The notes beneath the pieces were generated by a model. That model worked only from the letters and a program-made list of their open reading frames with translations. It did not search any database and was not told where the DNA came from. DNA of 64,000 bases from Tistrella mobilis (lineage in GTDB: Bacteria; Pseudomonadota; Alphaproteobacteria; Tistrellales; Tistrellaceae): assembly GCF_041468085.1 (NCBI RefSeq), contig NZ_CP121017.1, positions 2,669,676 through 2,733,675 on the forward strand. The letters are read 5' to 3'. Of the stretch, positions 12,588 through 54,129 are shown in pieces. Within the stretch, counting starts at the first letter, position 1, and every line of letters begins with the position of its first letter. The position numbers and the translations under genes were made by a program.

Positions 12588-13910
12588 ATGAACGGCGCGC
12601 GTGTGCTGATCTACAGCCACGACAGCTTCGGGCTCGGCCATCTGCGCAGATGCCGCGAGATTGCGCACGGCCTGGTCGGGACATTCCCCGACATGTCGGT
12701 GCTGATCCTCTCGGGTTCGCCGATCATCGGCAGCTTCGATTTCAGAACCCGCACCGATTTCGTTCGGGTGCCGGGTGTGATCAAGCTGCGCAATGGCGAC
12801 TACACCTCGCTGAAGCTCAAGATGGACGTCGACCACATCCTGAAGCTCAGGGGGGCGATCATCGAGCGCACGGCCGAGGTCTTTGAACCCGATGTCTTCA
12901 TCGTGGACAAGGAACCGCTGGGCCTGCGCGGCGAAGTCACGCGCACGCTGAAGCGATTGAAGCGCCGCGGCACCCGGCTGGTGCTGGGGCTGCGCGATGT
13001 GATGGACGAGCCCGCCCAGCTGGCGCCCGAATGGAAGCGCAAGCGGGTGCTGCCGGCATTGCGCGACCTCTATGACGACATCTGGGTCTACGGTCTGCCG
13101 GAAATCCATGATCCGCTGGAGGGCATCGACCTGCCGGCGGATGTCCGCGCCAAGATGACCTTCACCGGCTATCTGCGCCGCGAGGCCATGCGCGGCGCCG
13201 CGTCGGAGCGTATCCAGTCGCTGGTCGCCGGCGCCCCCTACATCCTGGTGACCACCGGTGGCGGCGGCGATGGCGAAGAACTGATCGACTGGGTATTGAA
13301 GGCCTATGAGCAGCATGGGCAAAGCCTGCCGCATCGCGCCGTGCTGGTGCTGGGGCCGTTCATGAACCGCGAGGCCCGCGACCGGCTGCGCGCCCGGGCC
13401 CAGAAGCTCGACAAGATCGAGGCGCTGACCTTCGACGCGAACATAGAGACCCTGATGGCGGGCGCGCTGGGTGTGGTGGCCATGGGCGGCTACAACACTT
13501 TCTGCGAGATCCTGTCGCTCGACAAGCCGGCCGTCATCGTCCCGCGCACGGAGCCACGGCTGGAGCAGTTCATCCGCGCCGACCGGGCCGAAAGGCTGGG
13601 GCTGACCCGCATGCTGCTCGATCCCGGGCCCGATCGCAGCGCCGCCGCCATGGCCGATGCGCTGCGCGGCCTTGAGCACCAGCCTCACCCGTCTTCGGTA
13701 ATGCCGGCCGGCATGCTCGACGGGCTGGATGCGGTCGCCGATCTGGTGGGCGCCGAGCTGGACCGGCGCGGCCGGCCCCAGACACGGATCCGGCAGGTGG
13801 CCGGCGGCAGTGCGGGCCCGATACAGACATCGCAGGTCGCAGCCGCCCCGGATGAGGAAACCTGGTCCGACGAGGCCGATTTCGGGACACGGCGCCGTGC
13901 GGCACCCTGA
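12588..13910 (+). CDS. Glycosyltransferase (COG4671-like, MurG fold)
   Basis: A 440-residue predicted GT-B glycosyltransferase. The N-terminus has the loop SHDSFGLGHLRRCREIA, and the C-terminal half has ILVTTGGGGDG and GGYNTFCEILSLDKPAVIVPR, resembling the donor-binding region of MurG/GT28-type enzymes. The last 50 residues are a variable tail. ATG 12588 is preceded by GGAGG at 11 bases. It is the first gene of a six-gene co-directional cluster and is paralogous to the gene at 17023. Neither acceptor nor donor can be read from the sequence. Confidence 0.82.
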   Translation: MNGARVLIYSHDSFGLGHLRRCREIAHGLVGTFPDMSVLILSGSPIIGSFDFRTRTDFVRVPGVIKLRNGDYTSLKLKMDVDHILKLRGAIIERTAEVFEPDVFIVDKEPLGLRGEVTRTLKRLKRRGTRLVLGLRDVMDEPAQLAPEWKRKRVLPALRDLYDDIWVYGLPEIHDPLEGIDLPADVRAKMTFTGYLRREAMRGAASERIQSLVAGAPYILVTTGGGGDGEELIDWVLKAYEQHGQSLPHRAVLVLGPFMNREARDRLRARAQKLDKIEALTFDANIETLMAGALGVVAMGGYNTFCEILSLDKPAVIVPRTEPRLEQFIRADRAERLGLTRMLLDPGPDRSAAAMADALRGLEHQPHPSSVMPAGMLDGLDAVADLVGAELDRRGRPQTRIRQVAGGSAGPIQTSQVAAAPDEETWSDEADFGTRRRAAP

Positions 13911-15201
13911 CGGCTGGACGCCCGGCCCCGGTGTGACCGGCGGCGGCGGGCCTGACGGCGGGCCGACCATCGCCGTGGTCCTGAAAGGCTATCCCCGCCT
14001 GTCAGAGACCTTCATCGCCCAGGAAATCCGGGCGCTGGAACTGGCCGGGCTGCCGCTTCGGCTGGTGTCGCTGCGCCACCCCACCGATACCCGCGTCCAT
14101 CCGGTCCATCGCGAGATTACGGCCGGGGTCCGCTATCTGCCGGAATATCTTCATCAGGAGCCGTTCCGGGTGCTGCACGGCCTGCGCCGTGCCGCACGCC
14201 TGCCGGGCTTCGCCCGCGCCCGGGCGCTCTGGCTGCGTGATCTCGCCCGAGACCGGACCCGCAACCGCATCCGCCGCTTCGGCCAGGCTGCCGTGCTCGC
14301 CGCCGAACTGGAAGACGATGTGGCGATGATCTACGCCCATTTCCTCCACACCCCGGCTTCCGTCGCGCGCTATGCCGCGATCATGCGCGGCCTGCCCTGG
14401 TCGGTTTCGGCCCATGCCAAGGACATCTGGACCAGCCCGGACTGGGAGAAGGCCGAGAAGCTGGCCGATTGCGCCTGGGCCGTCACCTGCACCGCCGCCA
14501 ATCGTGATCATCTGGCGTCGCTGGCGCCCGAAGGCCGCGTCCGGCTGCTCTATCACGGTCTCGACCTCTCGCGCTTTCCCGATCCGGGCCCGCTGCCGGC
14601 AGGGCCGGACGGCACCGACCCCACCCGCCCGGTCATCCTGGTCGGCGTCGGGCGGCTGGTGGAGAAGAAGGGCTGGGACACCGTGCTCGATGCCCTGGCG
14701 GAGCTGCCGGCAGGCCTTTCCTGGCGCTTCCTCCATATCGGCGGCGGGCCGCTCAGGGACCGGCTGAAGGAACAGGCCGGCCGCCTTGGCATCTCCGACC
14801 GGGTCGACTGGCTGGGGGCCCGCGCCCAGGCCGAAGTGATCGAGGCCTATGGCCGGGCGGATCTGTTCGTGCTCGCCAGCCGCATCGCCGGCGACGGCGA
14901 CCGCGACGGCCTGCCCAATGTGCTGATGGAAGCCCAGTCCCAGCGTCTGGCGGTGGTGGCGACCAGGGTCTCTGCCATCCCCGAATTCATCGACGACGGC
15001 AAAAACGGCCTGCTGGTGGCGCCCGACGATGCGGCCGGTCTGTCGGCCGCCCTGGGAGATCTCATCCGCGACCCGGCCCGCCGGTCGGAGATGGGTGAGG
15101 CCGGGCGCCGAAAGCTCGAAGGCGCCTTCTCGCTGACCGGCTCGGTCGGGCCGCTGATCGACCGGCTGCGGGCGGCGGTGGCGGCGCGCGGGGGCCGCTG
15201 A
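13897..15201 (+). CDS. Glycosyltransferase family 4 protein
   Basis: About 434 residues from a GTG start that overlaps the previous gene by 14 bases; a GTG at 13933 is an alternative. The N-terminal half begins AVVLKGYPRLSETFI, which is typical of GT4 enzymes in exopolysaccharide loci. The C-terminal GT-B domain has VGVGRLVEKKGWDTVLDAL, HIGGGPLRDRLKEQA and the nucleotide-sugar site GLPNVLMEAQSQRLAVVAT with the E-X7-E pattern. Cytoplasmic, acting at the membrane face on a lipid-linked glycan (inferred). Confidence 0.88.
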   Translation: MRHPDGWTPGPGVTGGGGPDGGPTIAVVLKGYPRLSETFIAQEIRALELAGLPLRLVSLRHPTDTRVHPVHREITAGVRYLPEYLHQEPFRVLHGLRRAARLPGFARARALWLRDLARDRTRNRIRRFGQAAVLAAELEDDVAMIYAHFLHTPASVARYAAIMRGLPWSVSAHAKDIWTSPDWEKAEKLADCAWAVTCTAANRDHLASLAPEGRVRLLYHGLDLSRFPDPGPLPAGPDGTDPTRPVILVGVGRLVEKKGWDTVLDALAELPAGLSWRFLHIGGGPLRDRLKEQAGRLGISDRVDWLGARAQAEVIEAYGRADLFVLASRIAGDGDRDGLPNVLMEAQSQRLAVVATRVSAIPEFIDDGKNGLLVAPDDAAGLSAALGDLIRDPARRSEMGEAGRRKLEGAFSLTGSVGPLIDRLRAAVAARGGR

Positions 15202-16394
15202 TGCGGGTTGCCCTCTACTGCCCTCTGAAGCATCCGGACCATCCGGTGCCGAGCGGCGACCGGCGGATGGCGCGCCAGATCCTGGCCGCGCTCCGCAAGG
15301 CCGGCCATCAGGCAGAGGTCGCCTGCCGCTTCGGCAGCCGCGACGGCCGCGGAGACCCCGCCCGGCAGGTGCGGATCGCGCGCACCGGCACCGCCCTCGG
15401 CCATGCTCTCGCCCGCCGCTACGCGCGTCGGCCCGCCGCTGCCGCCGCGCGCCCCGAAGCCTGGATCACCTATCACCTCTATCACAAGGCCCCCGACCAT
15501 CTGGGGCCGGTTGTCGCCGCGGCACTCGACATCCCCTATCTGGTGATCGAGGCATCGGATGCCCCGAAGCGCGCCACCGGCCCGTGGGAAACCGGCTTCC
15601 GCGCCGCCCGCCATGCGCTTGCCGCCGCCGATCTGGTGATGCCGATGACCCGGCTCGACGCCGTCTGCCTGGCGCGCCTGCTGCCGCCCGAGCGGCTTCG
15701 CCTGCTGCCGCCCTTTCTCGACGATATCGGCGTGTTTCAGGCCGCCCGCACCGGTCGCGATCAGGCCCGCGCCCGGCTTGCCGCCATGGCCGGGCTCGAT
15801 CCGGCACGGCCCTGGCTGCTCGCGGTCGGCATGATGCGGGCCGGCGACAAGCTCGACAGCTATCGCGTGATCGGCCGCATGCTCGCCGATCCGGCACTCG
15901 CCACCGCGCCGCTCCATCTGCTGGTCGCCGGTGACGGTCCCGCCAGGACCGATGTGATGGCGGCGCTTGAACCCGCAGGCGGCGGCCGGGTGCATTTCCT
16001 GGGGGCGCTTGCCCCCGCCCCCCTGGCCGCAGCGATGGCGGCATCCGATATCCTGGTCTGGCCGGCGGTGCGCGAAGCCTATGGCATGGCCCTGCTCGAA
16101 GCACAGGCGGCAGGGCTGCCGGTGGTCGCCGGCCGCACCGGCGGTGTGCCCGATGTGGTCGAAGACGGTGTGACCGGCCTTCTGGCGCCGCCCGAAGACG
16201 CTGCCGCCCTCGCCGCCCTCACCCGGCGGCTGATCGACGATCAGGGCACCCGCGCCCGGCTGGCCGCAGCGGCGGCCGGCCGGGCGTCGGCCCGCGATCT
16301 GGCCGCGGCCGCCGCGGCACTCGACGACGCCCTGCTGCGCGCCGCATGCAATCATGCGGCGCGGCGCCCCCGGTCCACGGAGGAGACGAGATGA
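15201..16394 (+). CDS. Glycosyltransferase family 4 protein
   Basis: A 397-residue GT-B enzyme whose ATG shares a base with the preceding stop (TGATG). The N-terminus has PSGDRRMARQILAALRKAGH, a donor/acceptor loop. The C-terminal domain has LHLLVAGDGPA and the site REAYGMALLEAQAAGLPVVAGRTGGVPDVV with E-X7-E. All motifs look intact. It is translationally coupled on both sides, so its product works in the same pathway as the flanking transferases. Confidence 0.88.
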   Translation: MRVALYCPLKHPDHPVPSGDRRMARQILAALRKAGHQAEVACRFGSRDGRGDPARQVRIARTGTALGHALARRYARRPAAAAARPEAWITYHLYHKAPDHLGPVVAAALDIPYLVIEASDAPKRATGPWETGFRAARHALAAADLVMPMTRLDAVCLARLLPPERLRLLPPFLDDIGVFQAARTGRDQARARLAAMAGLDPARPWLLAVGMMRAGDKLDSYRVIGRMLADPALATAPLHLLVAGDGPARTDVMAALEPAGGGRVHFLGALAPAPLAAAMAASDILVWPAVREAYGMALLEAQAAGLPVVAGRTGGVPDVVEDGVTGLLAPPEDAAALAALTRRLIDDQGTRARLAAAAAGRASARDLAAAAAALDDALLRAACNHAARRPRSTEETR

Positions 16395-17008
16395 CCGGAC
16401 CCGCCCGCCCGACCACCGGCGGTATCATCCTGGCCCTGATCCGCCATGGCCGCACCGACTGGAACGATCAGGGCCGCATGCAGGGCCGGCACGATCTGCC
16501 GCTCAACGATCGGGGCCGCGCCGAGGTGACCGGCTGGCAGGTGCCGGCGGCCATCGCCACCGCCTATGACTGGTACACCTCACCCCTCCTCCGGGCGCGC
16601 GAGACCGCAGCCCGCCTGGGGGCTCCGGGCGCCCGGGTGGCGCCCGAACTGGTCGAGATGGCCTGGGGCATCTGGGAAGGCCGGCGGCTGGAGGATCTGC
16701 GCCGCGAACAGCCCGACCACATGAGCCTGATGGAAGCCCGGGGCCTGGATTTCCGCCCGCCCGAGGGCGAAAGCCCGCGCGACGTCCAGCGCCGGCTGAA
16801 GCCCTGGCTTGCGGCCATCGGCACCAATGGCCGCAATGTCGTCGCCGTCACCCACAAGGGCGTGATCCGTGCGATCTATGCCGCCGCCACCGGCTGGCCG
16901 ATGCTGGGCAAGCCACCGGAAAAGCTCGCCCGCGACGCCGCCCATCTGTTCCGGGTGGACGAAACCGGCGCCGTCGCGGTGCATCACCTGAACCTGAAGC
17001 TCGCCTGA
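16391..17008 (+). CDS. Histidine phosphatase family protein
   Basis: A 205-residue phosphoglycerate-mutase-like phosphatase. The catalytic motif LIRHGRTDWN is at about residues 16-25. The acid/base Glu is expected in VEMAWGIWEGRR and the second His is in VAVTHKGVIRA. The start overlaps the upstream stop (ATGA). In a glycan cluster the substrate may be a sugar phosphate or a phosphorylated precursor, as with GmhB/CobC-like enzymes; this is inference from context. Confidence 0.88.
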   Translation: MTGPARPTTGGIILALIRHGRTDWNDQGRMQGRHDLPLNDRGRAEVTGWQVPAAIATAYDWYTSPLLRARETAARLGAPGARVAPELVEMAWGIWEGRRLEDLRREQPDHMSLMEARGLDFRPPEGESPRDVQRRLKPWLAAIGTNGRNVVAVTHKGVIRAIYAAATGWPMLGKPPEKLARDAAHLFRVDETGAVAVHHLNLKLA

Positions 17009-17022
17009 GGACGCCCGCCCCC

Positions 17023-18255
17023 ATGCCCGACACCCCCATGGTCGACGTCAGCCCCGCCACCACCAGCCGTACCGATCGCCCGCGCATCCTGCTCTATGTC
17101 CAGCACCTGCTCGGCATCGGCCATCAGAAGCGGGCGGCGACCCTGACCCGGGCGCTGGAGACGGCGGGCTTCGCGGTCACCTATGTCAGCGGCGGCTTTC
17201 CGGTGCGCGGGCTGGATACCGGACGGGCAGACTTCGTTCAGCTGCCGCCGACGCGGGCGGTGGACAAGTTCTTCAAGGTGCTGGTCGGCCCCGACGGACA
17301 GGTGGTCGACGATGCCTGGCGGGCCCGGCGCCGCGATCATCTGGTGGCGATCGTCGAGCGTCTGCGGCCGGTGGCCGTGATCACGGAACTCTTTCCTTTC
17401 GGCCGCCGCCAGCTGGCCTCCGAGATCGTGCCGATGGTCGAAGCGGCCCGCGCCCTTCCCCGCCCGGCGCTGATCGTCTCGTCGGTGCGCGACATCCTGG
17501 TCGAGCCGCCGAAGGAAGAGCGTCGCCGCGAGATGCTGGAACGCGCCCGGCGCTTCTACGATCTGGTCATGGTCCACGGCGATCCGGCGCTGGTGCCCTT
17601 CGAGCGCACTTTTCCGCTGATGGCCGAGGTCTCTGACCTCGTCCGCTATACCGGCTATGTGGTCGACCGGGCGCGCCAGAGCGCGCCCCCGCCCGGTGGA
17701 AGCGTTCAGGATGGCCGGGACGAGGTTCTGGTCTCGGCCGGCGGCGGGGCCGTCAGCGAGGCCCTGTTCCGCGCCGCCATCGCCGCCCGCGCCCTCGCCT
17801 CGCCAGCCCTGGCGCGCCGGCGCTGGCGGCTGCTGGTCGGCTGGAATCTGGCGGATCCCGTGCTCGACGATCTGCGCCAGGTGGCGGCAGAGGCCGACGC
17901 GGAGGGTTTCGTGGTGGAACGCGCGCGTCCCGATTTCGTCGCCATGCTGGGACGTGCTGCCCTTTCGATCTCTCAGGCGGGCTACAACACCCTGCTGGAG
18001 GTGATCGAGAACCGGGTGCCGGCAGTGGTCGTGCCCTATGCCGGCGGGCTTGAAACCGAACAGGGGCTGCGCGCCGGTCTGGTGGCGGAGCGCGGCCTGG
18101 TCGAGGTGGTCGACGAAGACGCGCTCACCGCCCGGGCACTGGCAGCCGCCGCCGATCGTGCCCTCGCGGCCGAACGGAACTGGCCACGGCTCGACATGGA
18201 CGGGGCTGCCGCGTCGGCACGGCTGCTGCACGACCGGCTGGCGGCCGGGGGTTAG
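17023..18255 (+). CDS. Glycosyltransferase (COG4671-like), paralogue of the 12588 gene
   Basis: A 410-residue predicted GT-B enzyme. N-terminal LLGIGHQKRAATLTRALETAGF parallels the GHLRRCREIA loop of the 12588 product. EVLVSAGGGAVSE and QAGYNTLLEVIENRVPAVVVPYAGGLETEQ form the donor-site region. It starts 15 bases after the phosphatase gene. Two members of this uncommon family in one operon suggest two related glycosyl transfers. Confidence 0.82.
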   Translation: MPDTPMVDVSPATTSRTDRPRILLYVQHLLGIGHQKRAATLTRALETAGFAVTYVSGGFPVRGLDTGRADFVQLPPTRAVDKFFKVLVGPDGQVVDDAWRARRRDHLVAIVERLRPVAVITELFPFGRRQLASEIVPMVEAARALPRPALIVSSVRDILVEPPKEERRREMLERARRFYDLVMVHGDPALVPFERTFPLMAEVSDLVRYTGYVVDRARQSAPPPGGSVQDGRDEVLVSAGGGAVSEALFRAAIAARALASPALARRRWRLLVGWNLADPVLDDLRQVAAEADAEGFVVERARPDFVAMLGRAALSISQAGYNTLLEVIENRVPAVVVPYAGGLETEQGLRAGLVAERGLVEVVDEDALTARALAAAADRALAAERNWPRLDMDGAAASARLLHDRLAAGG

Positions 18256-18261: not shown

Positions 18262-19032
18262 ATGGCTGCGGACCCCTGGGCCGATCTTACCGCCGAACTC
18301 GATGCCTGGGCCGCCGCCGGCCGGCAGGCGACGTTCTGGTGGCGCGATGACGATGCCGTCGCCCCCTCTCCCGCCCTCGACCGGCTGCTCGGACGCGTGA
18401 ATGCATACCGGGTGCCTCTGGCACTGGCGGTGATCCCGGCCGCCGCCGAACCCGCCCTAGCCGCCCGGCTGGCCGCTGCGCCCGCGGCGATCCGGGTGCT
18501 GGTCCATGGCTGGTCGCATGCCAACCATGCCCGCCCCGACAAGAAGAAATCCGAACTCGCCTGCGGCCGGCCGATGGTAGAGATGGCCGGCGATCTCGCC
18601 CGCGGGCATGCCCGTCTGGCGGATCTGTTCGGGCCTCGCCTGCTGCCGGTGCTCACCCCGCCCTGGAACCGGCTGCCGGTGCCGCTGATCAGGGAACTGC
18701 CCCTGATCGGCCTCGGCGGTCTCAGCCGGTTCAAGCCGCGCAAGGCCCGATGCCCGGCGCCCGGGGTGGTGGAGGTCAACACCCATATCGACCCGATCGA
18801 CTGGCGCGGCAATCGCGGCTTCATCGGCGAAGCCGTTGCTGTCGCCGCCATCACCGCACATCTCGCCGCCCGGCGCAGCGGTCACGCCGATGCACAGGAG
18901 CCCACCGGTCTGCTGACCCATCATCTTGTGCACGACCCGGCACTGGATGAATTTCTCGACCGGCTGATGGCATATTTCGCCGGCCATCCGGCGGTAATCT
19001 GGCCGGATCTGCCGACCATTTTCTCGCCCTGA
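18262..19032 (+). CDS. Polysaccharide-deacetylase-like (NodB-type) protein
   Basis: A 256-residue protein with the layout of a carbohydrate esterase 4 TIM barrel. TFWWRDDDAV provides the acidic metal/catalytic pair, VLVHGWSHANH the His-x3-His-like metal motif, and LTPPWNRLP corresponds to motif 3. A DxxH-like NTHIDPIDW follows. It has no signal peptide, so it would deacetylate a cytoplasmic or lipid-linked sugar. It starts 6 bases after the previous gene and closes the cluster. Function as a deacetylase is likely but not proven. Confidence 0.75.
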   Translation: MAADPWADLTAELDAWAAAGRQATFWWRDDDAVAPSPALDRLLGRVNAYRVPLALAVIPAAAEPALAARLAAAPAAIRVLVHGWSHANHARPDKKKSELACGRPMVEMAGDLARGHARLADLFGPRLLPVLTPPWNRLPVPLIRELPLIGLGGLSRFKPRKARCPAPGVVEVNTHIDPIDWRGNRGFIGEAVAVAAITAHLAARRSGHADAQEPTGLLTHHLVHDPALDEFLDRLMAYFAGHPAVIWPDLPTIFSP

Positions 19033-19212: not shown

Positions 19213-19749
19213 ATGGACCTGACCGGCAGGCCCGTGCCGGCACGCCCGACGGCTGCGGCCCTGCCGCGGTTGCGTCATCGGCCGCCCCCCCTGATCGCCG
19301 ATCTTGCCCGCGCGGCCGCCGGCGGCGCAGTGATCGCCCTGCCGCTGCTGGTCGTCGACGGCATGAACGGCGTGCTGCGGTTGATACTGATCGCCCTGGT
19401 GATGCTGTTCGCGAGCTTCGCGGTTCAGCGTGGGCTCAAGCTTGCCGAAAGCTGGACGGCAGATGGCCATCTCATCATCCGCCAGACCGCCTTCGGTCGG
19501 AACCGGCTGGATCTCGCCCGCCTCAGGACCTTCCGGCTGGAACATTTCGCCCCCCGCAAGGGTGCCGGCTGGTTCCGCCTGCGTCTGATCGACGACAGCG
19601 GCGTGCGGCTTGCCGCCGAAGACACGCTGGAAGACTTCCATCGCCTCGTTGCCCTGGCGCTCACCGCGGCCGAGTCCCGCGCCCTGCCGCTCGATGACGT
19701 GACCACCCACAACCTGGCAGCGCTCGGCCTCGCCCGGGGGATCGCATGA
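19213..19749 (+). CDS. Small membrane protein, bacterial-PH-like (hypothetical)
   Basis: 178 residues from ATG 19213 (ATG 19168 would add 15). Two adjacent hydrophobic segments (about 33-75) are followed by a compact beta-rich region beginning ESWTADGHLIIRQ, reminiscent of membrane-anchored bacterial PH (YdbT-like) domains. The stop overlaps the start of the ABC ATPase gene (ATGA), so it is co-translated with the peptide importer, though no known role links them. Assignment is tentative. Confidence 0.6.
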   Translation: MDLTGRPVPARPTAAALPRLRHRPPPLIADLARAAAGGAVIALPLLVVDGMNGVLRLILIALVMLFASFAVQRGLKLAESWTADGHLIIRQTAFGRNRLDLARLRTFRLEHFAPRKGAGWFRLRLIDDSGVRLAAEDTLEDFHRLVALALTAAESRALPLDDVTTHNLAALGLARGIA

Positions 19750-21665
19750 GCGGGCGGCGCCATGCGTGGCCGCAGCCGCGGCCACTGCTGTCGGTGCGCG
19801 ATCTGGTCGTGCGCTTCCATCTGCCCGAAGGGCCGCTGACGGCGGTCGACGGCGTGTCCTTCACCATCCATCCGGGCCGGATCACTGCCCTGGTCGGCGA
19901 AAGCGGCTCGGGCAAAAGCGTGCTGACCCAGGCGGTGATGGGCCTGCTGCCCTCGCTTGCCCGGATTGAGGGCGGGGCCGCGGTGTTCACCGATCCGCTC
20001 GACGGCCAGGCCACCGACCTTGCAACGCTCGCCCCCACCGGCCGGACGATGCGCCGGATCCGGGGCGGGCGCATCGGCATGATCTTTCAAGAGCCGATGA
20101 GCGCATTGTCGCCGCTACACACGCTCGGCGACCAGATCACCGAGGCGGTGCGGCTTCATCTGAACGAAGATGCCGCAGCGGCACGCGACATCGCCGCCGA
20201 CATGCTGCACAAGGTGGGCTTCCCGAACCCGAAAGCCGCCCTCGACCGCTACCCGTTCGAACTGTCGGGCGGCCTGCGTCAGCGCGGCGTGATCGCCATG
20301 GCGCTTGCCGCCCGCCCGGCCCTGGTCATCGCCGACGAGCCGACCACCGCGCTCGACGTCACGCTTCAGGCCCAGATCCTGAAACTGCTCCGCGACCTTC
20401 AGGACGAGCTGGGCATGGGCGTGCTGCTGATCACCCATGATCTGGGCGTGGTCGCAAGCCTGGCCGACGACATGGTCGTGCTCTATCGCGGCAAGGTGAT
20501 GGAGGCAGGCCCGGCGGCCGCGCTTATCCGCAAGCCGGAACATCCCTATCTTAAGGCCCTGCTTGGTGCCGTGCCGCGGATCGGCATGGAGCGGTCGGAG
20601 CGCCTGGTACCGCTGCGCGAAATCGCGCTGGATCCCCGCCTTGCGGTGGATGTCGTCGGCCGTCAGGGCACCGGCCCCAGGGCGGCGGCGGGCACGCCTC
20701 TGCTCGCGGTCGAAGGGTTGACCAAGCGCTTCACCAGCCGCGGCACCGGGCTCTTCGCCCGCGGCGGCGGCACCAGCGTGACGGCGGTCGACCATGTCTC
20801 CTTCACCGTCGGCCGCGGCGAAAGCGTCGGCCTGGTCGGCGAAAGCGGCTGCGGCAAGACCACCACCTCGCGCATGCTGCTGGGTGCGATCCGCGCCGAT
20901 GAAGGCCGGATCCTGTTTCAGGGTGATCACGACGCCGCCCCCACCGACCTCGCCGCCCTCGACGAGGGCGGCTGGATTCCGTTCCGCAAGCGGCTGCAAT
21001 ACGTTTTCCAGGACCCGTTCCATTCGCTGAACCCGCGGATGACCGTGTTCGACATCATCGCCGAGCCGCTGGAAATCCACGGCATCGGCACCGCGAAGGA
21101 ACGTGCCGACCGGGTGAAGGCGCTGATGAAGATGGTGGGGCTTGATGTCCGCCATCTCCGCCGCTATCCGCACAGCTTCTCGGGCGGTCAGAGGCAGCGC
21201 ATCGGCATTGCCCGCTCGCTGGCCCTGGGCCCCGAACTGCTGATCCTGGACGAGCCGGTCTCGGCGCTCGACGTTTCGGTCCAGGCGCAGGTGTTGAACC
21301 TGCTCAAGGATCTGCAGGATGTGCTGGGCCTCGGCTATCTGTTCATCTCCCACAATCTGGCCGTGGTCGACTACATGTGCGACCGCATCCTGGTGATGTG
21401 TGCCGGCCGGATCGTCGAGAGCGCGCCGCGCGAACGACTGTTCGAGGATGCCCGCCATCCCTACACCAAGGCGCTGATCGCCGCGGTGCCCGAGGCCGAT
21501 CCCGACCGGCCGCTCGATTTCGCGGCGCTGATGGATGGCCGCGCCTCGGATCCGTCTGCATGGCCCGAGCCCTGGCGGCTGGTGCCGGACGGGCCCTCGG
21601 TGATGGAAGAGGTGACGCCGGGCCATTTCGTCCGGGTGGCGGCAAGCGCGGAGGCCGCGGCATGA
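19746..21665 (+). CDS. Fused dual-ATPase of an oligopeptide-type ABC importer (OppDF/YejF-like)
   Basis: A 639-residue protein with two complete ABC ATPase domains. Domain 1 has Walker A GESGSGKS (51-58), signature LSGGLRQRG and Walker [14 protein letters not shown]. Domain 2 has GESGCGKTT, signature [12 protein letters not shown] and [12 protein letters not shown]. The HPYTKAL stretch near the end is the oligopeptide-transporter C-terminal signature. Fusion of the two ATPases is as in YejF. It is the first subunit gene of the importer, followed by binding protein and two permeases. Confidence 0.93.
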
Positions 21666-23632
21666 TCCGCCTCGCCGCCATCCTGGTCGCCGCCCTGCTT
21701 GCCGGGGCTGCGCCTGCCACCGCATCGAACGGCGGCGATGACGGGCGTGCGATGGGCAGCATCATCGAGATGATGATCGCGCCCAGCGCCCCCATGCCGG
21801 ACCGGCTGATCGAACCGCCGGTGCTTGAACGGCAGGTGGCCGAGGGCAAACTGCCGCCGATGGCCGAGCGTCTGCCGACGGTGCCGGCCGTCGATGATGT
21901 CGTCGGCCCCGATCTCAGCCCCGGCCGCTATGGCGGCAGCTGGACGATGCTGGTCGGCCGGCCCAAGGATGTGCGCATGGCCATGGTCTACGGCTATGCC
22001 CGGCTGGTCCGCTACACCCGCGACTTCTCGTTCGAAGCCGATATCCTGAAGGAGATGGATGTCGAGGACGGGCGGATCTTCACCCTGCATCTGCGCCCCG
22101 GCCATCGCTGGTCCGATGGCGAACCCTTTACGGCCGACGACTTCCGCTACTATTGGGAAGACGTGGTCAACAACAGCAATCTGTACCCGGCAGGCCCGCC
22201 GCGCGAGCTTCTGGTGGATGGCGAGTTGCCGCGCTTCACCGTGATCGACGCAACCACGGTGCGCTACGAATGGTCGAAGCCCAACCCTCGGCTGCTGCCA
22301 GCAATTGCAGGGCCGCTGCCGCTGACCCTCTACCGGCCGGCCCATTACCTGCGCCAGTTCCACGAGCGCTACGCCGACCCGGAAAAGCTTGCCGCGATGA
22401 TCGAAAAGCGCAAGCAGTCGAGCTGGGCGGCGCTGCACAACCGCATGGACACGGCGACCGATTTCAGCAATCCGGATTTCCCGACCCTGCAGCCCTGGCG
22501 GCTGGTGACGGCGCCGCCGGCCGTCCGGTTCCTGGTCGAGCGCAACCCCTATTACCATCGCATCGACCTGAACGGCCACCAGCTGCCCTATCTCGACCAG
22601 ATCGCGATCGACATCGTCGACGGAAAGCTGATCTCGGCACGCGCCGGCACCGGCGATGCCCTGCTCCAGGCGCGCGGGCTCGATTTCACCGACTACACTT
22701 TCCTTAAGGCCGGCGAGACGCGCTCCGACTATAAGGTCACACTGTGGCGTACCGGGCGCGGCGCCCATCTGGCGCTCTACCCCAATCTCAATGCCCGCGA
22801 TCCGGGCTGGCGGGCGCTGTTTCGCGATGCGCGCTTTCGCCGGGCGCTGTCCATGGGCGTCGACCGGCACGAGATCGACGCCGTGCTCTATTACGGCCTG
22901 ACCATCGGTGGCGGCAACAGTGTGCTCGACGAAAGCCCGCTGTCGCGCCCTGGCTACCGGAAGGTCTGGGCCAATCACGATGTCGACCGGGCCAACAAGC
23001 TGCTCGACGATATGGGTCTCGACAAGCGCAACGAGCGCGGCATCCGGCTGATGCCCGATGGCCGGCCGCTGGAGCTGGTGATCGAGACTGCGGGCGAGAG
23101 CACCGAGCAGATGGACGTGCTGGAACTGCTCCACGACCAGTGGCTGCAGCTCGGCGTCAAGATCTATGCCCGGCCGATGCAGCGCGACCTGTTCCGCAAC
23201 CGGATCTTCGCCGGCGACACGCTGATGAGCGTCTGGTTCGGGCTGGAAGCCGGCCTTGCGACCGCCGAGACCGACCCGTGGGAACTGGCGCCGGTCAGCC
23301 AGCAATCGCTGCAATGGCCGAAATGGGGCCAGTATTTCGAGACCGGCGGCCGTTCGGGCGAGGCACCCGATATCGACAAGGCTGAACAGCTGCTGGCGCT
23401 CTACAAGGCCTGGACGGTGGCACCCTCCTCGGCGGATCGCGCACGGATCTGGCGGGAGATGCTCGCGATCAATGCCGATCAGGTCTACACCATCTCGCTG
23501 GTGGCAGGCGTGTTGCAGCCGGTCGTCGCCAACCGGCGGCTGCGCAACCTGCCCGACCGCGGGCTCTACAACTGGGATCCGGGTGCGCATTTCGGCCTCT
23601 ACCGGCCGGAACGCTTCTGGCTCGACGACTGA
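21662..23632 (+). CDS. Oligopeptide-type periplasmic substrate-binding protein (SBP_bac_5)
   Basis: A 656-residue family-5 solute-binding protein with a signal peptide (LAAILVAALLAGAAPATA). The family signature region RYGGSWTML...FTLHLRPGHRWSDGEPFTADDFRYYWED is intact. The start overlaps the ATPase stop (ATGA). The length (over 600) is nearer to YejA-like and other large binding proteins than to DppA. It captures the ligand, probably a peptide or peptide-like compound. A hairpin follows in the gap before the permease genes. Confidence 0.9.
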   Translation: MIRLAAILVAALLAGAAPATASNGGDDGRAMGSIIEMMIAPSAPMPDRLIEPPVLERQVAEGKLPPMAERLPTVPAVDDVVGPDLSPGRYGGSWTMLVGRPKDVRMAMVYGYARLVRYTRDFSFEADILKEMDVEDGRIFTLHLRPGHRWSDGEPFTADDFRYYWEDVVNNSNLYPAGPPRELLVDGELPRFTVIDATTVRYEWSKPNPRLLPAIAGPLPLTLYRPAHYLRQFHERYADPEKLAAMIEKRKQSSWAALHNRMDTATDFSNPDFPTLQPWRLVTAPPAVRFLVERNPYYHRIDLNGHQLPYLDQIAIDIVDGKLISARAGTGDALLQARGLDFTDYTFLKAGETRSDYKVTLWRTGRGAHLALYPNLNARDPGWRALFRDARFRRALSMGVDRHEIDAVLYYGLTIGGGNSVLDESPLSRPGYRKVWANHDVDRANKLLDDMGLDKRNERGIRLMPDGRPLELVIETAGESTEQMDVLELLHDQWLQLGVKIYARPMQRDLFRNRIFAGDTLMSVWFGLEAGLATAETDPWELAPVSQQSLQWPKWGQYFETGGRSGEAPDIDKAEQLLALYKAWTVAPSSADRARIWREMLAINADQVYTISLVAGVLQPVVANRRLRNLPDRGLYNWDPGAHFGLYRPERFWLDD

Positions 23633-23660
23633 CAGGCGCCCGAGAACCGATCGGGCTGAA

Positions 23661-23707
23661 GATCCGCCGCGACAGCTGAGGGGCACCACAGAACCCCGCG
23701 GCGGATC
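23661..23707 (+). other. Intercistronic hairpin after the binding-protein gene
   Basis: GATCCGCCGC (23661-23670) pairs perfectly with GCGGCGGATC (23698-23707), with an inner GGGG/CCCC stem. No U-run follows and the permease ribosome-binding region begins right after, so it probably stabilises or attenuates rather than ends the transcript. Confidence 0.6.
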
Positions 23708-23730
23708 CAGGAGGGGGAGCAAGGCAGGCG

Positions 23731-24729
23731 ATGTTCGCCTACATCGCGCGGCGGTTGCTGATGATGATTCCGACGCTGATCCTGATCAGCATCCTGGTCT
23801 TCGTCATCATCCAGCTGCCGCCCGGCGACTATCTGACGACCCAGCTTGCCGAGCTGGCGGCCCAAGGTGAGGCGGCCAGCCAGGCGAAGATCGAGTTTCT
23901 GCGCGCAGAATACGGGCTCGACCTGCCGCTCTGGGAACAGTACCTCCGCTGGGCTTCGGGCCTGCTGGTCGGCGATCTCGGCTATTCCTTCGAGTATCAG
24001 CTGCCGGTGGCGGAAGTGGTGGGCGATCGCCTCTGGCTGACGATGCTGGTGTCGTTTGCAACCATCATCTTCTCCTATGCCGTCGCCTTCCCGATCGGCA
24101 TCTACGGCGCCATCCGCCAGTACAGCGCGCTTGACCATGGCCTCACCTTCATCGGCTTCCTGGGCCTCGCCACGCCCAATTTCCTCCTCGCCCTGGTCCT
24201 GCTCTACCTGTCGAACATCTGGTTCGGCACCTCGATCGGCGGGCTGATGGATCCGGAATATCTCGACCAGCCGCTGAGTTGGGCCAAATTCCTCTCGGTG
24301 ATGGAACATCTCTGGGTGCCGGTGGTGGTGATCGGCACCTCGAACACTGCCGGCATGATCCGCCGGCTGCGGGCCAATCTGCTCGACGAACTGCGCAAGC
24401 AATACGTCACCACCGCCCGCGCCAAGGGTCTGCACCCGGCAAAGATCCTGGTGAAATATCCGCTGCGCATGGCGCTGAACCCGTTCATCGCCGATCTGGG
24501 CAATGTGCTGCCGCAGGTGGTGTCGGGCGCGGCCATCGTCTCGGTGGTGCTGTCGCTGCCGACCACGGGGCCGATGCTGCTGCGCGCCCTGCAGACGCAG
24601 GACATGTATCTGGCCGGGTCCTTCCTCATGTTCATGGCATTGCTGACGGTGATCGGCGTGCTGGTGTCGGATCTGCTGCTCGCCCTGCTCGATCCGCGTA
24701 TCCGCCTCGACGGAGGACGTTCGCGATGA
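23731..24729 (+). CDS. Oligopeptide-type ABC permease (OppB/DppB family)
   Basis: A 332-residue permease with N-terminal MFAYIARRLLMMIPTLILISILVF, the typical first membrane segment and arginine pair of OppB proteins. The EAA loop reads YVTTARAKGLHPAKILVKYPLRMALNP. About six membrane segments are visible. It forms half of the inner-membrane channel with the next gene, whose ATG overlaps its stop. Confidence 0.93.
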   Translation: MFAYIARRLLMMIPTLILISILVFVIIQLPPGDYLTTQLAELAAQGEAASQAKIEFLRAEYGLDLPLWEQYLRWASGLLVGDLGYSFEYQLPVAEVVGDRLWLTMLVSFATIIFSYAVAFPIGIYGAIRQYSALDHGLTFIGFLGLATPNFLLALVLLYLSNIWFGTSIGGLMDPEYLDQPLSWAKFLSVMEHLWVPVVVIGTSNTAGMIRRLRANLLDELRKQYVTTARAKGLHPAKILVKYPLRMALNPFIADLGNVLPQVVSGAAIVSVVLSLPTTGPMLLRALQTQDMYLAGSFLMFMALLTVIGVLVSDLLLALLDPRIRLDGGRSR

Positions 24730-25880
24730 GCGGTCCCGAGCGCTACATCTCCCACGCCGCCTTCGATCCCGTCCATGACGAGGCCCTGACCCCGGCGCAG
24801 GAGAAATACTATCTCGCGTCGCAATGGCGGCTGATGTTCTGGCGGCTGCGCCGGCACAAGCTCGCCATGGCCTCGCTCTGGTTCCTGGGCTTCATCTATC
24901 TGGTGATGATTTTTGCCGAGCCCCTCAGCCCCTATAACCCCAACACCCGCCATATCGACAACATCCATGCCCCGCCGCAGACGGTGCATCTGTTCCACAA
25001 TGGCGAGTTCGTCGGTCCCTTCGTCTATGGCACCCGCTATGCGCTGAACATGGACACGCTCACCCGGACCTATTCCGAAGACCGGGTGCGGCCGCTGCCG
25101 ATCGGCTTCCTCTGTTCGGGAGAGCCTTACAGGCTCTGGGGGCTGATCCCCATGGATATCCGGCTGATCTGCCCGCCCAAGGGCGGTACGGTCTTCCTGC
25201 TCGGCACCGACCGGCTGGGGCGCGACATGCTTTCGCGGGTGATCGAGGGTGCACGGATCTCGCTGACGGTGGGTCTGATCGGCATCACCATCAGCTTCAC
25301 CCTCGGCATCCTGTTCGGTGGCCTGTCGGGCTATTACGGCGGCTGGGTGGACAGTGCCATCCAGCGGCTGATCGAGGTTATCCGCTCCTTCCCGGAACTG
25401 CCGCTCTGGATGGCTCTGTCGGCCGCCATGCCGGTCACCTGGCATCCGTTGTGGATCTTCATCGGCATCACCGTGATCCTGGGCCTGCTCGACTGGACGG
25501 GGCTTGCCCGGGCGGTGCGCTCGAAGCTTCTGGCGCTGCGCGAAGAGGACTATGCCACCGCCGCGGTGGTGATGGGCGCACGCCCCAGGCGGGTCATCCT
25601 CCGCCATCTCCTGCCCAATTTCATGAGCCATCTGATCGTTTCGGCGACGCTCACCATCCCGGCCATGATCCTTGGCGAGACCGCGCTTTCCTTCCTCGGC
25701 CTCGGCGTGCGTGCGCCGCTGATCTCCTGGGGCGTGCTGCTGAACGATGCCCAGGATATCAACGTCGTGACCCAGTACCCCTGGCTGCTGCTGCCGGTGG
25801 TGCCGGTGGTCCTTACGGTGCTGGCCTTCAACTTCCTGGGCGACGGGCTGCGTGATGCGGCCGACCCCTACCAGAACTGA
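24726..25880 (+). CDS. Oligopeptide-type ABC permease (OppC/DppC family)
   Basis: A 384-residue permease with an N-terminal cytoplasmic extension, a first membrane segment near 45-65, a long periplasmic loop (about 70-160) and the OppC motif GTDRLGRDMLSRVIEGARISLTVG. The EAA loop is DYATAAVVMGARPRRVILRHLLPN, ending with GDGLRDAADP. The long periplasmic insertion is typical of the larger YejE-like permeases. It is last in the operon; a terminator follows. Confidence 0.93.
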   Translation: MSGPERYISHAAFDPVHDEALTPAQEKYYLASQWRLMFWRLRRHKLAMASLWFLGFIYLVMIFAEPLSPYNPNTRHIDNIHAPPQTVHLFHNGEFVGPFVYGTRYALNMDTLTRTYSEDRVRPLPIGFLCSGEPYRLWGLIPMDIRLICPPKGGTVFLLGTDRLGRDMLSRVIEGARISLTVGLIGITISFTLGILFGGLSGYYGGWVDSAIQRLIEVIRSFPELPLWMALSAAMPVTWHPLWIFIGITVILGLLDWTGLARAVRSKLLALREEDYATAAVVMGARPRRVILRHLLPNFMSHLIVSATLTIPAMILGETALSFLGLGVRAPLISWGVLLNDAQDINVVTQYPWLLLPVVPVVLTVLAFNFLGDGLRDAADPYQN

Positions 25881-44549: not shown

Positions 44550-45259
<710 letters not shown>

Positions 45260-45263
<4 letters not shown>

Positions 45264-46147: not shown

Positions 46148-46166
46148 CCGATGGATCCTCCCCGCC

Positions 46167-47492: not shown

Positions 47493-48406
<914 letters not shown>

Positions 48407-49305: not shown

Positions 49306-50532
49306 TCAGGCGACCGCAGCCCCCTGTCGGCGATCGAGGCCGAGTTCGGCCCAGACCGACAGCAGCGCCTCGACCAGATGATCCATCATCGCGTCGTCAT
49401 GGAAGGGGCTGGGCGTAAAGCGCAGCCGCTCGGTGCCGCGCGGCACGGTCGGGTAGTTGATCGGCTGGACATAGATGCCGTGCTCGTCGAGCAGCAGATC
49501 GCTCGCCTTCTTGCAGGCGACCGGATCGCCCACCATCACCGGCACGATATGGCTGACCGACGGCATCACCGGCAGGCCCGCTTCGGCGAGCAGCCGCTTC
49601 AGTCGGGCGGCGCGCTCCTGATGGCGCTCGCGCTCGACCGTGCTTTCCTTCAGGTGCCGCACGCTCGCCAGCGCACCACCGGCGATCGCCGGCGGCAGCG
49701 AGGTCGAGAAGATGAAGCCCGGCGCATTGCTGCGGATGAAATCGACGGTCGCAGCCGAGGCGGCGACATAGCCGCCGACGATGCCGAATGCCTTCGCGAG
49801 GGTGCCCTGGATCAGGTCGATCCGCCCCATCAGATCCCGCGCCTCGGCGACACCACCGCCGCGCGGGCCGTAGAGACCGACCGCATGGACCTCGTCGATA
49901 TAGGAGAAGGCGCCATGGCGCTCGCAGACATCCAGGATTTCCGCGATCGGCGCAATATCGCCATCCATCGAATAAACTGATTCGAAGGCCACGATCTTGG
50001 GCGCCGCCGGATCGACCGAGGCGAGCTTCGCCTCAAGATCGGCCGGGTCGTTGTGCCGGAAGATGTGCCGCGCCGCCCCCGAATGCCGGATGCCGGCGAT
50101 CATCGAGGCATGGTTGAGCGCGTCGGAGAACAGATGGCACCCCGGCAGGCCGCGGGCGAGCGTCGAGAGCGCCGCCTCGTTCGCGTTGTAGCCCGAGGTG
50201 AACAGCAGAGCGGCTTCCTTGCCGTGCAGATCGGCAAGCTCTGCCTCCAGCAGCACGTGCAGGTGATTGGTGCCAGAGATGTTGCGGGTACCGCCGGCGC
50301 CGGCGCCCATGTTCCGCACGGCATCCTGCATGGCTGCAAGCACCTTGGGGTGCTGGCCCATGCCCAGATAGTCATTGCTGCACCAGACGACGATGTCGCG
50401 GGTCCCCTGGGGACCATGATGGGTGGCGCGCGGGAAGGCGCCGGCATGGCGTTCGAGATCGGCGAAGACACGGTAGCGGCCTTCGCGCTTCAGATCAGAG
50501 AGCGCGGCCTCGAAAAACGCCTGATAGTCCAT
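49306..50532 (-). CDS. hemA: 5-aminolevulinate synthase
   Basis: A 408-residue PLP-dependent alpha-oxoamine synthase. [28 protein letters not shown] is the bacterial ALAS N-terminus. [23 protein letters not shown] and [16 protein letters not shown] are conserved, and the PLP lysine is in [14 protein letters not shown]. It condenses glycine and succinyl-CoA, the first committed step of heme synthesis in alphaproteobacteria. The upstream region carries two sets of direct repeats and a possible promoter. Confidence 0.96.
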
Positions 50533-50700
50533 CACTAACCTCACAACACGTCGTGACGCGGTCCGCCCGGCGGTTCGTCCGTCGGGCTCGAGACCCACGT
50601 GCCGGGAAGGCTTTTCCCGCAGGACCGGTTCCGGTCAGGAAACCGGTCGGAACGGGGCGCCTCCTCTTGGCTCGGACACGTCACGCACCCGAACCGGCGT

Positions 50701-50872: not shown

Positions 50873-51448
50873 TCAGGCGTCAGCCGGCTCTGCCGCTGCC
50901 GATCCGCTCTCCTCGCCTGCAACGGCGAGGCGATAGCGCTCCGTCGTGCGGTCGACGCGCCGGGCCAGCTCGCGCATGATCTCCACCGCCATCTGCGGGA
51001 CCTGCGCGATCAGCTGGAAAAACAGTTCCTTGGAGATCCGGAGCGCTGTGACGGGGGTGGCCGCCACCACCGTCGCGGTTCTGGGCACGTCGCACAGGAT
51101 GGCGATTTCGCCGACCACGTCGTTGCGGCCCAGATCGGCCACTTTCAAGGGGCCGCGGGGTGTTGCGACCTGAACCTCGGCCGTACCCTCGACGATGATG
51201 AACACCGCATCGCCGACATCACCTTCCGAAAACACCCGGTCGCCCGGATCGAAGGTCAGCCGTTCGCTGGTAAAGGCAACGAGCTTGAGCTTCGCCGGTT
51301 CGATGTTGGCGAACATCGGCACATTGCGCAGCACCTCGACATCACGGATCAGGCTCACCGTCGCCTCCTGCACCTTGGCCGCCGGGTCATCGCCGGCACC
51401 GATTCCCTTCGCATGCGTCTTCCCTCTGCATGCGTCCTGCTTTCGCAT
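50873..51448 (-). CDS. Stand-alone cyclic-nucleotide-binding domain protein
   Basis: 191 residues from ATG 51448 (51466 also possible). A single cNMP-binding beta-roll spans about 40-160: LRNVPMFANIEPAKLKLVAF, FSEGDVGDAVFIIVEGTAEVQV, and the phosphate-binding cassette region GEIAILCDVPRTATVVA with Glu and Arg positions suited to cNMP contact. No helix-turn-helix follows, so it is not a DNA-binding Crp; a helix and short acidic tail end the protein. It begins 35 bases after the degenerate ABC-exporter gene and is probably its partner or sensor. Confidence 0.82.
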   Translation of the reverse strand: MRKQDACRGKTHAKGIGAGDDPAAKVQEATVSLIRDVEVLRNVPMFANIEPAKLKLVAFTSERLTFDPGDRVFSEGDVGDAVFIIVEGTAEVQVATPRGPLKVADLGRNDVVGEIAILCDVPRTATVVAATPVTALRISKELFFQLIAQVPQMAVEIMRELARRVDRTTERYRLAVAGEESGSAAAEPADA

Positions 51449-51483: not shown

Positions 51484-54129
51484 TCAGCCTTCCGACGTCA
51501 GGCGGCGGAAGGCACTGCCTTCCTGGTCGATCTCGTCGGGACTGCCGGTCTGTGCGACCCGGCCGCCCTGCATGACGACCACATGGTCGAAACTCCGTGC
51601 CAGCGCCGGCCGTTGCAGCGCCCAGACGATACAATGCCCGGCCATCGCCTCGCGCAGCCGTTCCACCAGATCCATCTGCTCCAGCGTGTCGACGGCGGAG
51701 GTTGCTTCCGACAGGACCAGCAGATCCGGCCGCTTGAGCAGCGCCCGCGCGATCGCCGCCTTCTGGCGCTGCGCATTGGACAGCCTGGAGCCGCCGGATC
51801 CCACCTGGAAAGCGAGCCCCGCTGCCATCACCACATCGCGCAGCTCCGCTTCGTCGATGACCTGGGCGAGTTTCTGCCCCACCTTGCCGCGGGCCTGGGC
51901 CTGACCGTGGACGATGCGTCCGAACAGGATGTTGTCCTGGATGGAACTGCGGGCATGATAGCGCGTCCGGTCGAAGAACTCGATTCGTGCCTTCAGATCA
52001 CCGGGCCCGTGTTCCATCAGGCGTTTGCGTGCGATCAGGATCCGCTCCCGCACCCGGTCGTCGAGCACGTCGAGCCGGTGGCGGGCCGGGATCAGCTGCA
52101 GGGCCAGACCGACCAGACGGCGGCGCTCCTGGGCGTCGAGGGCGCCCACACCTTCGCGTTCGATCCGGTTCAGCAGTGTCTGATAGCCCGGCAGATCCTC
52201 GGACGAAATGAAGCTGTACTGCTCGAAGAATTCATGATCGGGCGGCAGATCGGCGAAGAGTTCGATCATCGTTGCGGCAATGCGCCGGCCGGCCTCGACC
52301 AGATCGGCATCGAGCGCGCCGTCGGTCAGCACTTCTTCGACGAAGGGATGCTCGACCAGCGTCTCAAGTTCCTCGCCATCGCCGCGCGGCGCACCGAAGA
52401 GCAGGTTCTCGGCGACACTGGCGTTGTCGTTCCAGCGCTCCACCTCGAAGGGTTCCACAAGCCTGCCCAGCCCCTCTGAGCCGAGTGCCCGGTGGAACTT
52501 CTCGCGGCCTTCCAGCACGCGGGCCGCGCGTTCAGGCTCGGCATCCGGGTCGATGCGGCCGCGCAGGCCCAAGGCGAAGACATCATCGTCCAGCCGCACG
52601 ATCTTCAGGGCTTCGATCATCCGGCGTTCGGCCGCCTCGATCCCCTGGCCGCCCACCGCCTGGTAATCGATCCAGTCGGCATGGATATCCCACTCGCAAT
52701 TACCCGAGCGGCGGGCCTCGTTCAGGTCGCGCTCCCACTGCCGCTTCGCCTCTGCATCAAGCTCACGGGCGATGACCGGGCGATGTTTCAGGCTGTAGAG
52801 CAGATTGTCTGCAAGTGTGGCGTTGAAGAACACGGTCGAGGCGCCGACGAAAGCGATCCGGCGGCCCACCACCGCATCGGGCAAACCCGCCAGATCCTGG
52901 CCGCCGATGGTAATCCGGCCCGATTGCGGATCCGCCAGCCGGGCAAGGATCAGCGCCAGCTCATGCTTACCGCTGCCGGCGCCACCGACCACGGCGGTAT
53001 GTGCGTCGAGCGGCAGGTGCAGGCTGACCCCTTCCAGCAGCTGTATTTCGCCCTCATCCGCCAGATTGACACCCGAGAGCACGATCTCCCCCGTGAAGGG
53101 TTCGATCTTCGGCGGATCCGACAGCAGGCGCTCCGGATCGATCATGCCGGCGGGCTCGAACTGCGCCACGACCTGCTCATACTTGATCCGCGCGTCTTCC
53201 TTCATCTGGTAATAGGCGAGCAACTCCTTCCAGGGCGAATACAGCTCCTTATAGGCGCTGATCACCGCCACCAGGGCACCGACCGACAGCTCGCCCTTGA
53301 TGACCAGATAGCCACCGATCGTAAAGAAAAAGAACGGCCCGAGCTGAGAAATGAAATTGTTCAGGAATTTGATGAAGAATTTTCGGATATAGATCTCGTA
53401 GCGGACCCAGAATACGGCATTCATGCGATCCGCAAAATCCGCCAACTCATATGCCGCCGTATCGTTTGATCGGATTTCCTGGATACCGGTGATCGTTTCG
53501 CCGATCCGATCAGAGACCTTGCGCATCAGCCGCACGCGAGTCTTGCCGAGGTTATTGACCTTCCGTTGCAGCTTCGGGATCAGATAGATCTGGATCGGAT
53601 AGAGCGAGATCGCCGCCAGGCCCATCAACGGGTCCTGGACGAACAGGAAGACCAGAATGGTCAGCAGGGTGCCGCCCTGATAGGCGGGTGTCGCGATCGC
53701 CTCAGCGATATAGCCGCCAAGCGGCTCCACCTCGCTGGTGATCATCGGGATGGTCTCGCCGGCGCTGGTCCGGCGGAAATGCGGCAGCGGAAAGCGCAGG
53801 ACCCGCATGAACAGATCATAGCGCAGCCGGCGGAGCATACGCTCGCCCAGCAGGCCCTTGTAGACGTTGATGACGTATTTGAAGGCCTGATTGACGATGA
53901 CCAGCAGCAGGAAAATTCCGCACAGGGCGAAAAGATATTCAAGCTGGTCGAATTCGAACCCGAAATAGGTCTTCGGGAAATCGCTGCCCTGGATCGCCTT
54001 GTTCAGGATGACCTTGGGCAGATCCAGGAAGATATAGAGAAAGGGGAAGGATGCGACGGTGAGGATCAGAAGGATGATCTGCTGGCGCAGGCTATGGCGA
54101 ACGATATAGCGGAACAGCGAATGTTCCAT
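51484..54129 (-). CDS. ABC-exporter-like protein with degenerate ATPase motifs and large insertion
   Basis: An 881-residue protein. Residues 1-320 are a type I exporter membrane domain with hydrophobic segments near 18-38, 66-88, 152-180 and 262-290. The nucleotide-binding domain starts near 345. Its motifs are all altered: Walker A GGAGSGKHE (382-390) has His389 in place of Ser/Thr; the Q-loop region IAFVGAST lacks Gln; the signature is LSNAQ (783-787) instead of LSGGQ; Walker B LLVLSEAT has Ser807 in place of Asp, though Glu808 remains; the H-switch site reads WALQR without His. About 330 residues (445-775) are inserted between Q-loop and signature. ATG 54129 follows AAGGGG. ATP hydrolysis looks impaired. 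Confidence 0.85.
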   Translation of the reverse strand: MEHSLFRYIVRHSLRQQIILLILTVASFPFLYIFLDLPKVILNKAIQGSDFPKTYFGFEFDQLEYLFALCGIFLLLVIVNQAFKYVINVYKGLLGERMLRRLRYDLFMRVLRFPLPHFRRTSAGETIPMITSEVEPLGGYIAEAIATPAYQGGTLLTILVFLFVQDPLMGLAAISLYPIQIYLIPKLQRKVNNLGKTRVRLMRKVSDRIGETITGIQEIRSNDTAAYELADFADRMNAVFWVRYEIYIRKFFIKFLNNFISQLGPFFFFTIGGYLVIKGELSVGALVAVISAYKELYSPWKELLAYYQMKEDARIKYEQVVAQFEPAGMIDPERLLSDPPKIEPFTGEIVLSGVNLADEGEIQLLEGVSLHLPLDAHTAVVGGAGSGKHELALILARLADPQSGRITIGGQDLAGLPDAVVGRRIAFVGASTVFFNATLADNLLYSLKHRPVIARELDAEAKRQWERDLNEARRSGNCEWDIHADWIDYQAVGGQGIEAAERRMIEALKIVRLDDDVFALGLRGRIDPDAEPERAARVLEGREKFHRALGSEGLGRLVEPFEVERWNDNASVAENLLFGAPRGDGEELETLVEHPFVEEVLTDGALDADLVEAGRRIAATMIELFADLPPDHEFFEQYSFISSEDLPGYQTLLNRIEREGVGALDAQERRRLVGLALQLIPARHRLDVLDDRVRERILIARKRLMEHGPGDLKARIEFFDRTRYHARSSIQDNILFGRIVHGQAQARGKVGQKLAQVIDEAELRDVVMAAGLAFQVGSGGSRLSNAQRQKAAIARALLKRPDLLVLSEATSAVDTLEQMDLVERLREAMAGHCIVWALQRPALARSFDHVVVMQGGRVAQTGSPDEIDQEGSAFRRLTSEG

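Follow-up and report, generated by a model that had tools for sequence, protein, structure and literature searches.

The window, the whole stretch of 64,000 nucleotides analysed here, encodes an ABC protein that is an ABCB-type exporter by its fold and that, judged from its residues, fails the motif tests defining a working ATPase. We propose that it is a conserved pseudo-ABC exporter, a homodimer in which the nucleotide-binding domains (NBDs) would relay a cyclic-nucleotide signal, and not ATP hydrolysis, to a membrane step of glycan assembly. We give this proposal about an even chance of being right. The features on which it is based are listed in Table 1.

Table 1. Features of the ABC gene, its neighbour and the glycosyltransferase genes in the window.
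Feature	Position	Strand	Basis
GT28/MurG-like glycosyltransferase	12591..13907	plus	Pfam; 53% identity to Mesorhizobium cluster gene
GT4 glycosyltransferase (EpsE/WcaL-like)	13969..15201	plus	Pfam, cluster comparison
GT4 glycosyltransferase	15201..16394	plus	Pfam, cluster comparison
Histidine phosphatase	16346..17008	plus	Pfam, cluster comparison
Second GT28/MurG-like glycosyltransferase	17023..18255	plus	Pfam, cluster comparison
Homologue of rhizobial-cluster gene annotated as polysaccharide deacetylase	18262..19032	plus	44% identity; no Pfam match
Oligopeptide-type ABC importer (dual ATPase, SBP_bac_5, two permeases)	19746..25880	plus	Pfam; also in rhizobial and Azospirillum clusters
CNB-domain protein (P0002), without DNA-binding domain match, GTG start inferred	50873..51358	minus	PF00027, E 1.7e-20
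Degenerate ABC-exporter-fold protein, 881 aa (TMD + split NBD)	51484..54129	minus	ORF and translation; Pfam ABC_membrane, ABC_tran; AF2 model
Transmembrane domain, residues 1-330, best-conserved part	53140..54129	minus	Pairwise identity
Walker A GGAGSGKHE (382-390)	52960..52986	minus	Translation, homologue alignment
Q-loop segment copy 1, RRIAFVGASTVFFNATLADNLLYS (423-446)	52792..52863	minus	Sequence comparison
Conserved NBD insert, residues 447-712 (~270 residues)	51994..52791	minus	No Pfam or PDB relative found; AF2 alone pLDDT 88.9
Q-loop segment copy 2, LVEPFEVERWNDNASVAENLLFG (557-579)	52393..52461	minus	hhalign against copy 3; insert profile
Q-loop segment copy 3, IEFFDRTRYHARSSIQDNILFG (716-737)	51919..51984	minus	Sequence comparison
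NBD C-lobe: LSNAQ, LVLSEAT (Ser807), D-loop Asp814, Gln839 replacing His	51487..51993	minus	Translation, alignment

Domain layout and ATPase motifs of the window protein

The ABC gene is a reverse-strand ORF that starts at ATG 54129 (MEHSLFRYIV...) and stops at 51484. A longer ORF of 1000 aa was ruled out, since the homologues begin at the same Met. The only Pfam domains of the protein are ABC_membrane (PF00664, E 3.1e-23, 83.3 bits against a cut-off of 28) and ABC_tran. The chain begins at the transmembrane domain (TMD), and Pfam matched no C39 peptidase domain. The AlphaFold2 model, made with 79 homologues, had a pLDDT of 84.8 and a pTM of 0.80. Its NBD superposes on all 239 residues of the ComA NBD chain (3vx4; rmsd 1.7, Z 29.8), which indicates that the predicted NBD fold is complete. 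An earlier note on this DNA had taken the fold, the membrane domain and the Walker A Lys to be retained, in agreement with the Pfam TMD match, the complete predicted NBD and the presence of Lys388.

The Walker A motif lacks its Ser/Thr (GGAGSGKHE, 382-390), the Q-loop position is Ala430 in place of Gln, and the signature is LSNAQ (783-787), in which the glycines of LSGGQ are gone. The Walker B Asp is replaced by Ser807, and the H-loop His by Gln839. The residues kept are Lys388, Glu808 at the catalytic-Glu position and the D-loop Asp814. The earlier note had named the same substitutions (GSGKHE without Ser/Thr, no Q-loop Gln, LSNAQ, Ser807 and no H-switch His), and each is correct on the translation; its statement that every ATPase motif is altered was slightly too strong, given the three residues that are kept. 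Canonical Walker A and Walker B motifs were present in 6/6 other ABC exporters of the same genome, and 5/6 had an LSGGQ/E signature. These six exporters, together with homologues that show the same losses, rule out chance, composition or sequencing error as the source of the substitutions.

The NBD is split by the insert, and extra copies of the Q-loop/'ENLLFG' segment lie inside the ATPase domain. In hhalign comparisons, copies 2 and 3 aligned with each other across 71 columns (E 1.4e-13), and the alignments of copy 1 with these two reached E about 1e-5 to 1e-6. By these alignments, the duplication that gave copies 2 and 3 is firm; copy 1, whose matches cover short stretches only, is a likely further copy. 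The insert profile also matches copy 3 in many genomes. Asn575 and Asn733 are invariant in the family, and Asn442 is nearly so. The spacings between Walker A and copy 1 and between copy 3 and the signature are each roughly those of ordinary exporters. The simplest account would therefore be that the Q-loop/helical-subdomain segment was duplicated internally. The insert had no match in Pfam and no credible relative among PDB sequences (best E 0.41). Foldseek found nothing at E <= 0.001 for the insert folded alone, a result that does not prove a new fold.

Distribution and constraint of the ABC family

A search based on the insert found relatives in 98/289 alphaproteobacterial genomes (about a third), mostly in single copy, and at least 580 candidate stretches of the family were confirmed by a scan of genome contigs. 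Among 398 genomes sampled from the phylum, the 31 with a match were all Alphaproteobacteria, yet some matching MAGs are titled Gammaproteobacteria. The closest named relative of the window protein is from Tistrella mobilis (97% identity), which belongs to the same genus as the genome of the window, and the homologue of S. meliloti 1021 is located on pSymB. One genome (G042) carries two diverged family copies, L057 and L058. In another (G210), the family gene is present only as a 436-aa ORF from query residue 447 (L039, also L013), and its N-terminal half is either missing or in another frame.

The same losses are common across 131 aligned homologues, and none of these has canonical motifs. All nine checked ATPase residues occurred together in 0/131 (best 7, median 4, window protein 4). 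The Walker A Ser/Thr position is occupied by D in 55, E in 42, H in 8, S in 8 and T in 3 homologues, and it is acidic (Asp/Glu) in 97 of the 131 (74%). The Walker A Lys is kept in 83/131 and is Arg in 41/131 (31%). The Walker B Asp was found in 15/131, the Q-loop Gln in 34/131 and the H-loop His in 50/131, with Glu at the Glu808 position in 84/131 and the D-loop Asp814 in 123/131. The usual aromatic residue of the A-loop region, a stretch of uncertain alignment, is apparently lost in most members. On the tree, the acidic Walker A and the other motif states shift far less often than in shuffles; they are therefore inherited and not noise. Residues that serve to bind Mg-ATP and to hydrolyse it have been lost throughout the family.

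The dN/dS of the window gene against T. mobilis was 0.035 for the whole gene and 0.017 for its membrane domain, values that indicate purifying selection. Mean pairwise identity in the family was 0.567 in the TMD and 0.438 in the NBD core. When the family was compared with a canonical one, its conservation was about 0.58 in the TMD and about 0.45 in the NBD core, and the NBD/TMD ratio was 0.76-0.80 in four random draws. In contrast, the canonical exporter family, 30 sequences from the same class, had 0.681 in the NBD and 0.527 in the TMD, with a ratio of 1.29. The constraint has therefore moved from the NBD to the membrane domain in the ABC family. Within the TMD, with approximate helix limits, conservation is highest in TM5 (0.707), in TM6 (0.678) and in the part formed by intracellular loop 1 and the first coupling helix (0.653). 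The good conservation of this loop and coupling helix and the near constancy of Asp814 suggest that the domains are still coupled.

The earlier note had read the protein as possibly ATP-binding but non-hydrolysing, with both sites of a homodimer degenerate. The degenerate sites and the absence of hydrolysis are supported by the motif losses, as far as sequence can tell, and ATP binding is less supported. Even Mg-ATP binding by the family seems doubtful, because the Mg-coordinating Ser/Thr is mostly acidic and the Lys is Arg in nearly a third of the homologues. ATP binding or slow hydrolysis by the window protein itself is possible, because Lys388 and Glu808 are retained. A sensor clamped by ATP, in which both sites hold ATP unhydrolysed, the NBD dimer is closed and the protein reports the ATP level or serves as a scaffold, would fit these two residues, the D-loop Asp814 and the Lys of 83 homologues, and the degenerate sites of ABCC1 and ABCC7 retain ATP for minutes (PMC7756269). 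The acidic Walker A position, the Arg replacements, the apparent loss of the A-loop aromatic (uncertain in alignment) and the relaxed conservation of the NBD relative to the TMD argue against such a clamp, which would also leave the partner described below unexplained. We consider it unlikely, although it is the strongest of the rival explanations.

Cyclic-nucleotide-binding partner and glycosyltransferase system

The next gene after the ABC gene, on the same strand with its start at about 51358, encodes a protein with a cyclic-nucleotide-binding (CNB) domain. A CNB domain was adjacent or fused in 129/134 ABC-family loci with context: in 114 a CNB gene comes immediately after the ABC gene in the same orientation, in 15 the domain is fused at the C-terminus, and 5 are without it; this count leaves aside one further locus that ends at a contig edge. 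In the phosphate-binding cassette of the CNB partners (GE[IL]A...PRTAT), the Arg was present in 120/120 and the Glu in 113/120. This conservation supports ligand binding by the CNB partner, for which cAMP, cGMP or another molecule could be the ligand. Class III adenylate/guanylate cyclase genes occur within the Mesorhizobium, Phyllobacterium and R. johnstonii clusters, and in the rhizobial clusters L159, L160 and L177 one to several such genes lie beside the ABC/CNB pair. The signal for the CNB partner may therefore be made locally in rhizobial clusters. The genome of the window has nine domains of the class III cyclase family PF00211 above the cut-off.

A divergent group (L059, L060, L061, L062 and L178, including a Ruegeria member) has the CNB domain fused and up to three paralogues in one genome. 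Both its Walker A and its CNB phosphate-binding motif are eroded, and the latter weakens the case for ligand control in L059-L062. In the Ruegeria member, a CAAX-endopeptidase-type gene comes next. The immediate neighbours of the ABC/CNB pair in the window, assigned by eye, are a 5-aminolevulinate synthase-like ORF (49306-50598) and a divergent autotransporter-like ORF (54518-56656). A cluster for a branched-chain-amino-acid-type ABC importer, with a substrate-binding protein, two ATPases and two permeases, was also recognised by eye at 42892-48406.

Elsewhere, the family gene is surrounded by GT28/MurG-like and GT4 glycosyltransferase genes, a histidine phosphatase gene and a polysaccharide-deacetylase-type gene, which are joined in rhizobial and Azospirillum clusters by an oligopeptide-type ABC importer. 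The window contains this gene set too, on its plus strand (12.6-25.9 kb), and a distance of about 26-39 kb separates it from the ABC gene. In the same 289 genomes as the ABC search, with a GT28-like gene counted as present at E <= 1e-40, both genes were found in 90, the ABC gene only in 8, the GT gene only in 2 and neither in 189. The GT28-like gene thus accompanies the ABC gene in 90 of 98 genomes (odds ratio about 1063, p 1.7e-62, with kinship ignored and no phylogeny correction), and the two lie within 10 kb in 62/69 same-contig cases. This co-occurrence and proximity strongly support a place for the ABC protein in the glycosyltransferase system, which is apparently uncharacterised. Assignment to a defence system was rejected, as the PADLOC matches, to ABC and CNB proteins, were all weak and generic.

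In the part of the glycan cluster that was examined, neither a Wzx nor an ABC-2 flippase was obvious. The protein might fill this place as an active exporter or flippase with a non-canonical ATPase, in which the acidic Walker A residue and Glu808 would rearrange the metal site and the linked glycan or glycolipid would be pumped. The strongly constrained TMD and the Glu found in 84 homologues are consistent with such activity. However, Walker A, Q-loop, signature, Walker B and H-loop are variable where working ATPases are nearly invariant, and we rate an active pump somewhat below the ATP clamp.

Proposed mechanism and comparison with known systems

The near-constant company of CNB and glycan genes suggests that a different signal controls the ABC protein. 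The earlier note had missed the split-NBD insert with its extra Q-loop copies, the CNB partner and the co-occurring glycan system; the extra copies, the partner and the glycan genes point to a specific control input. We propose that the ABC protein is probably a homodimer, and that its NBDs would connect the CNB partner structurally with the coupling helices and relay between them. The membrane domain would change its state when a cyclic nucleotide binds, and not through ATP hydrolysis, and this change may regulate or passively gate a membrane step in cell-surface glycan assembly. Candidates for this step are glycosyltransferase scaffolding and the flipping of a lipid-linked product. The scaffold, gated or passive flippase, and ATP-clamp versions would look alike in sequence. 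A more specific form of the proposal, which we hold only tentatively, is an exporter machine without ATP: the CNB subunit would drive the exporter-fold homodimer, the extra Q-loop/helical copies would act as the relay, and the whole would gate or organise the glycan membrane step.

The protein could also form a heterodimer, in which a canonical half-transporter from another locus would be the second half. Heterodimeric exporters that have a single degenerate site are common (PMC7756269), and many ordinary exporters are present in the same genome. However, no second exporter half was found among the conserved neighbours, in a search that covered linked genes, and known pairs keep one canonical composite site, which would need a good signature or Walker set from the window NBD. 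We regard a heterodimer as improbable, below the active pump. A decaying copy of an ordinary exporter would explain the lost catalytic residues, but it is rejected with near certainty on the low dN/dS, the class-wide orthologues that share the losses and the insert, and the conserved linkage to partner genes. These data support a role like the sensor or scaffold, rather than pump, that the earlier note had proposed.

The ATPase is what normally defines an ABC exporter, and this family retains the membrane machine and the coupling elements, which are strongly selected, and drops the ATP chemistry. It is therefore a natural test of the roles that NBDs have apart from hydrolysis. The family also connects second-messenger signalling with an alphaproteobacterial glycan system in rhizobia, Azospirillum and Tistrella, and knock-outs are practical in organisms that bear the family. 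No published description of the family, of the rhizobial loci or of degenerate or CNB-linked exporters of this kind was found in a search of mainly open-access literature.

Across its full canonical length, the fold of the TMD and NBD in the ABC family is that of ABCB-type (type IV) exporters such as MsbA, Sav1866 and TM287/288. The family differs from these exporters in the lost ATP-handling residues, the insert of ~270 residues with extra Q-loop copies, the CNB partner and the shift of constraint from NBD to TMD. TM287/288, TmrAB and TAP are heterodimeric exporters with one degenerate site (PMC7756269). Their altered Walker B, H-loop and signature residues resemble those of the ABC family, whereas in the latter a homodimer would have two degenerate sites, an acidic residue mostly stands in place of the Walker A Ser/Thr, and no linked canonical half was seen among the conserved neighbours examined. 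The ABC exporter HetC has a C39 peptidase domain and, at its N-terminus, a CNB domain that binds ppGpp and is needed for function; its ATPase catalytic residue is essential (PMC10986499). The likeness is an ABC exporter tied to a CNB domain. In contrast to HetC, the ABC family has a degenerate ATPase, no peptidase match and a CNB domain in a separate gene or at the C-terminus, and by these features it is not a HetC-like peptidase exporter. CFTR (ABCC7) and SUR are exporter folds that were turned into a regulated channel or a regulator. Both have kept ATP binding, and in CFTR one site has kept hydrolysis as well. The control domains of CFTR and SUR are unrelated to that of the ABC family, and their retained ATP binding sets them apart from it.
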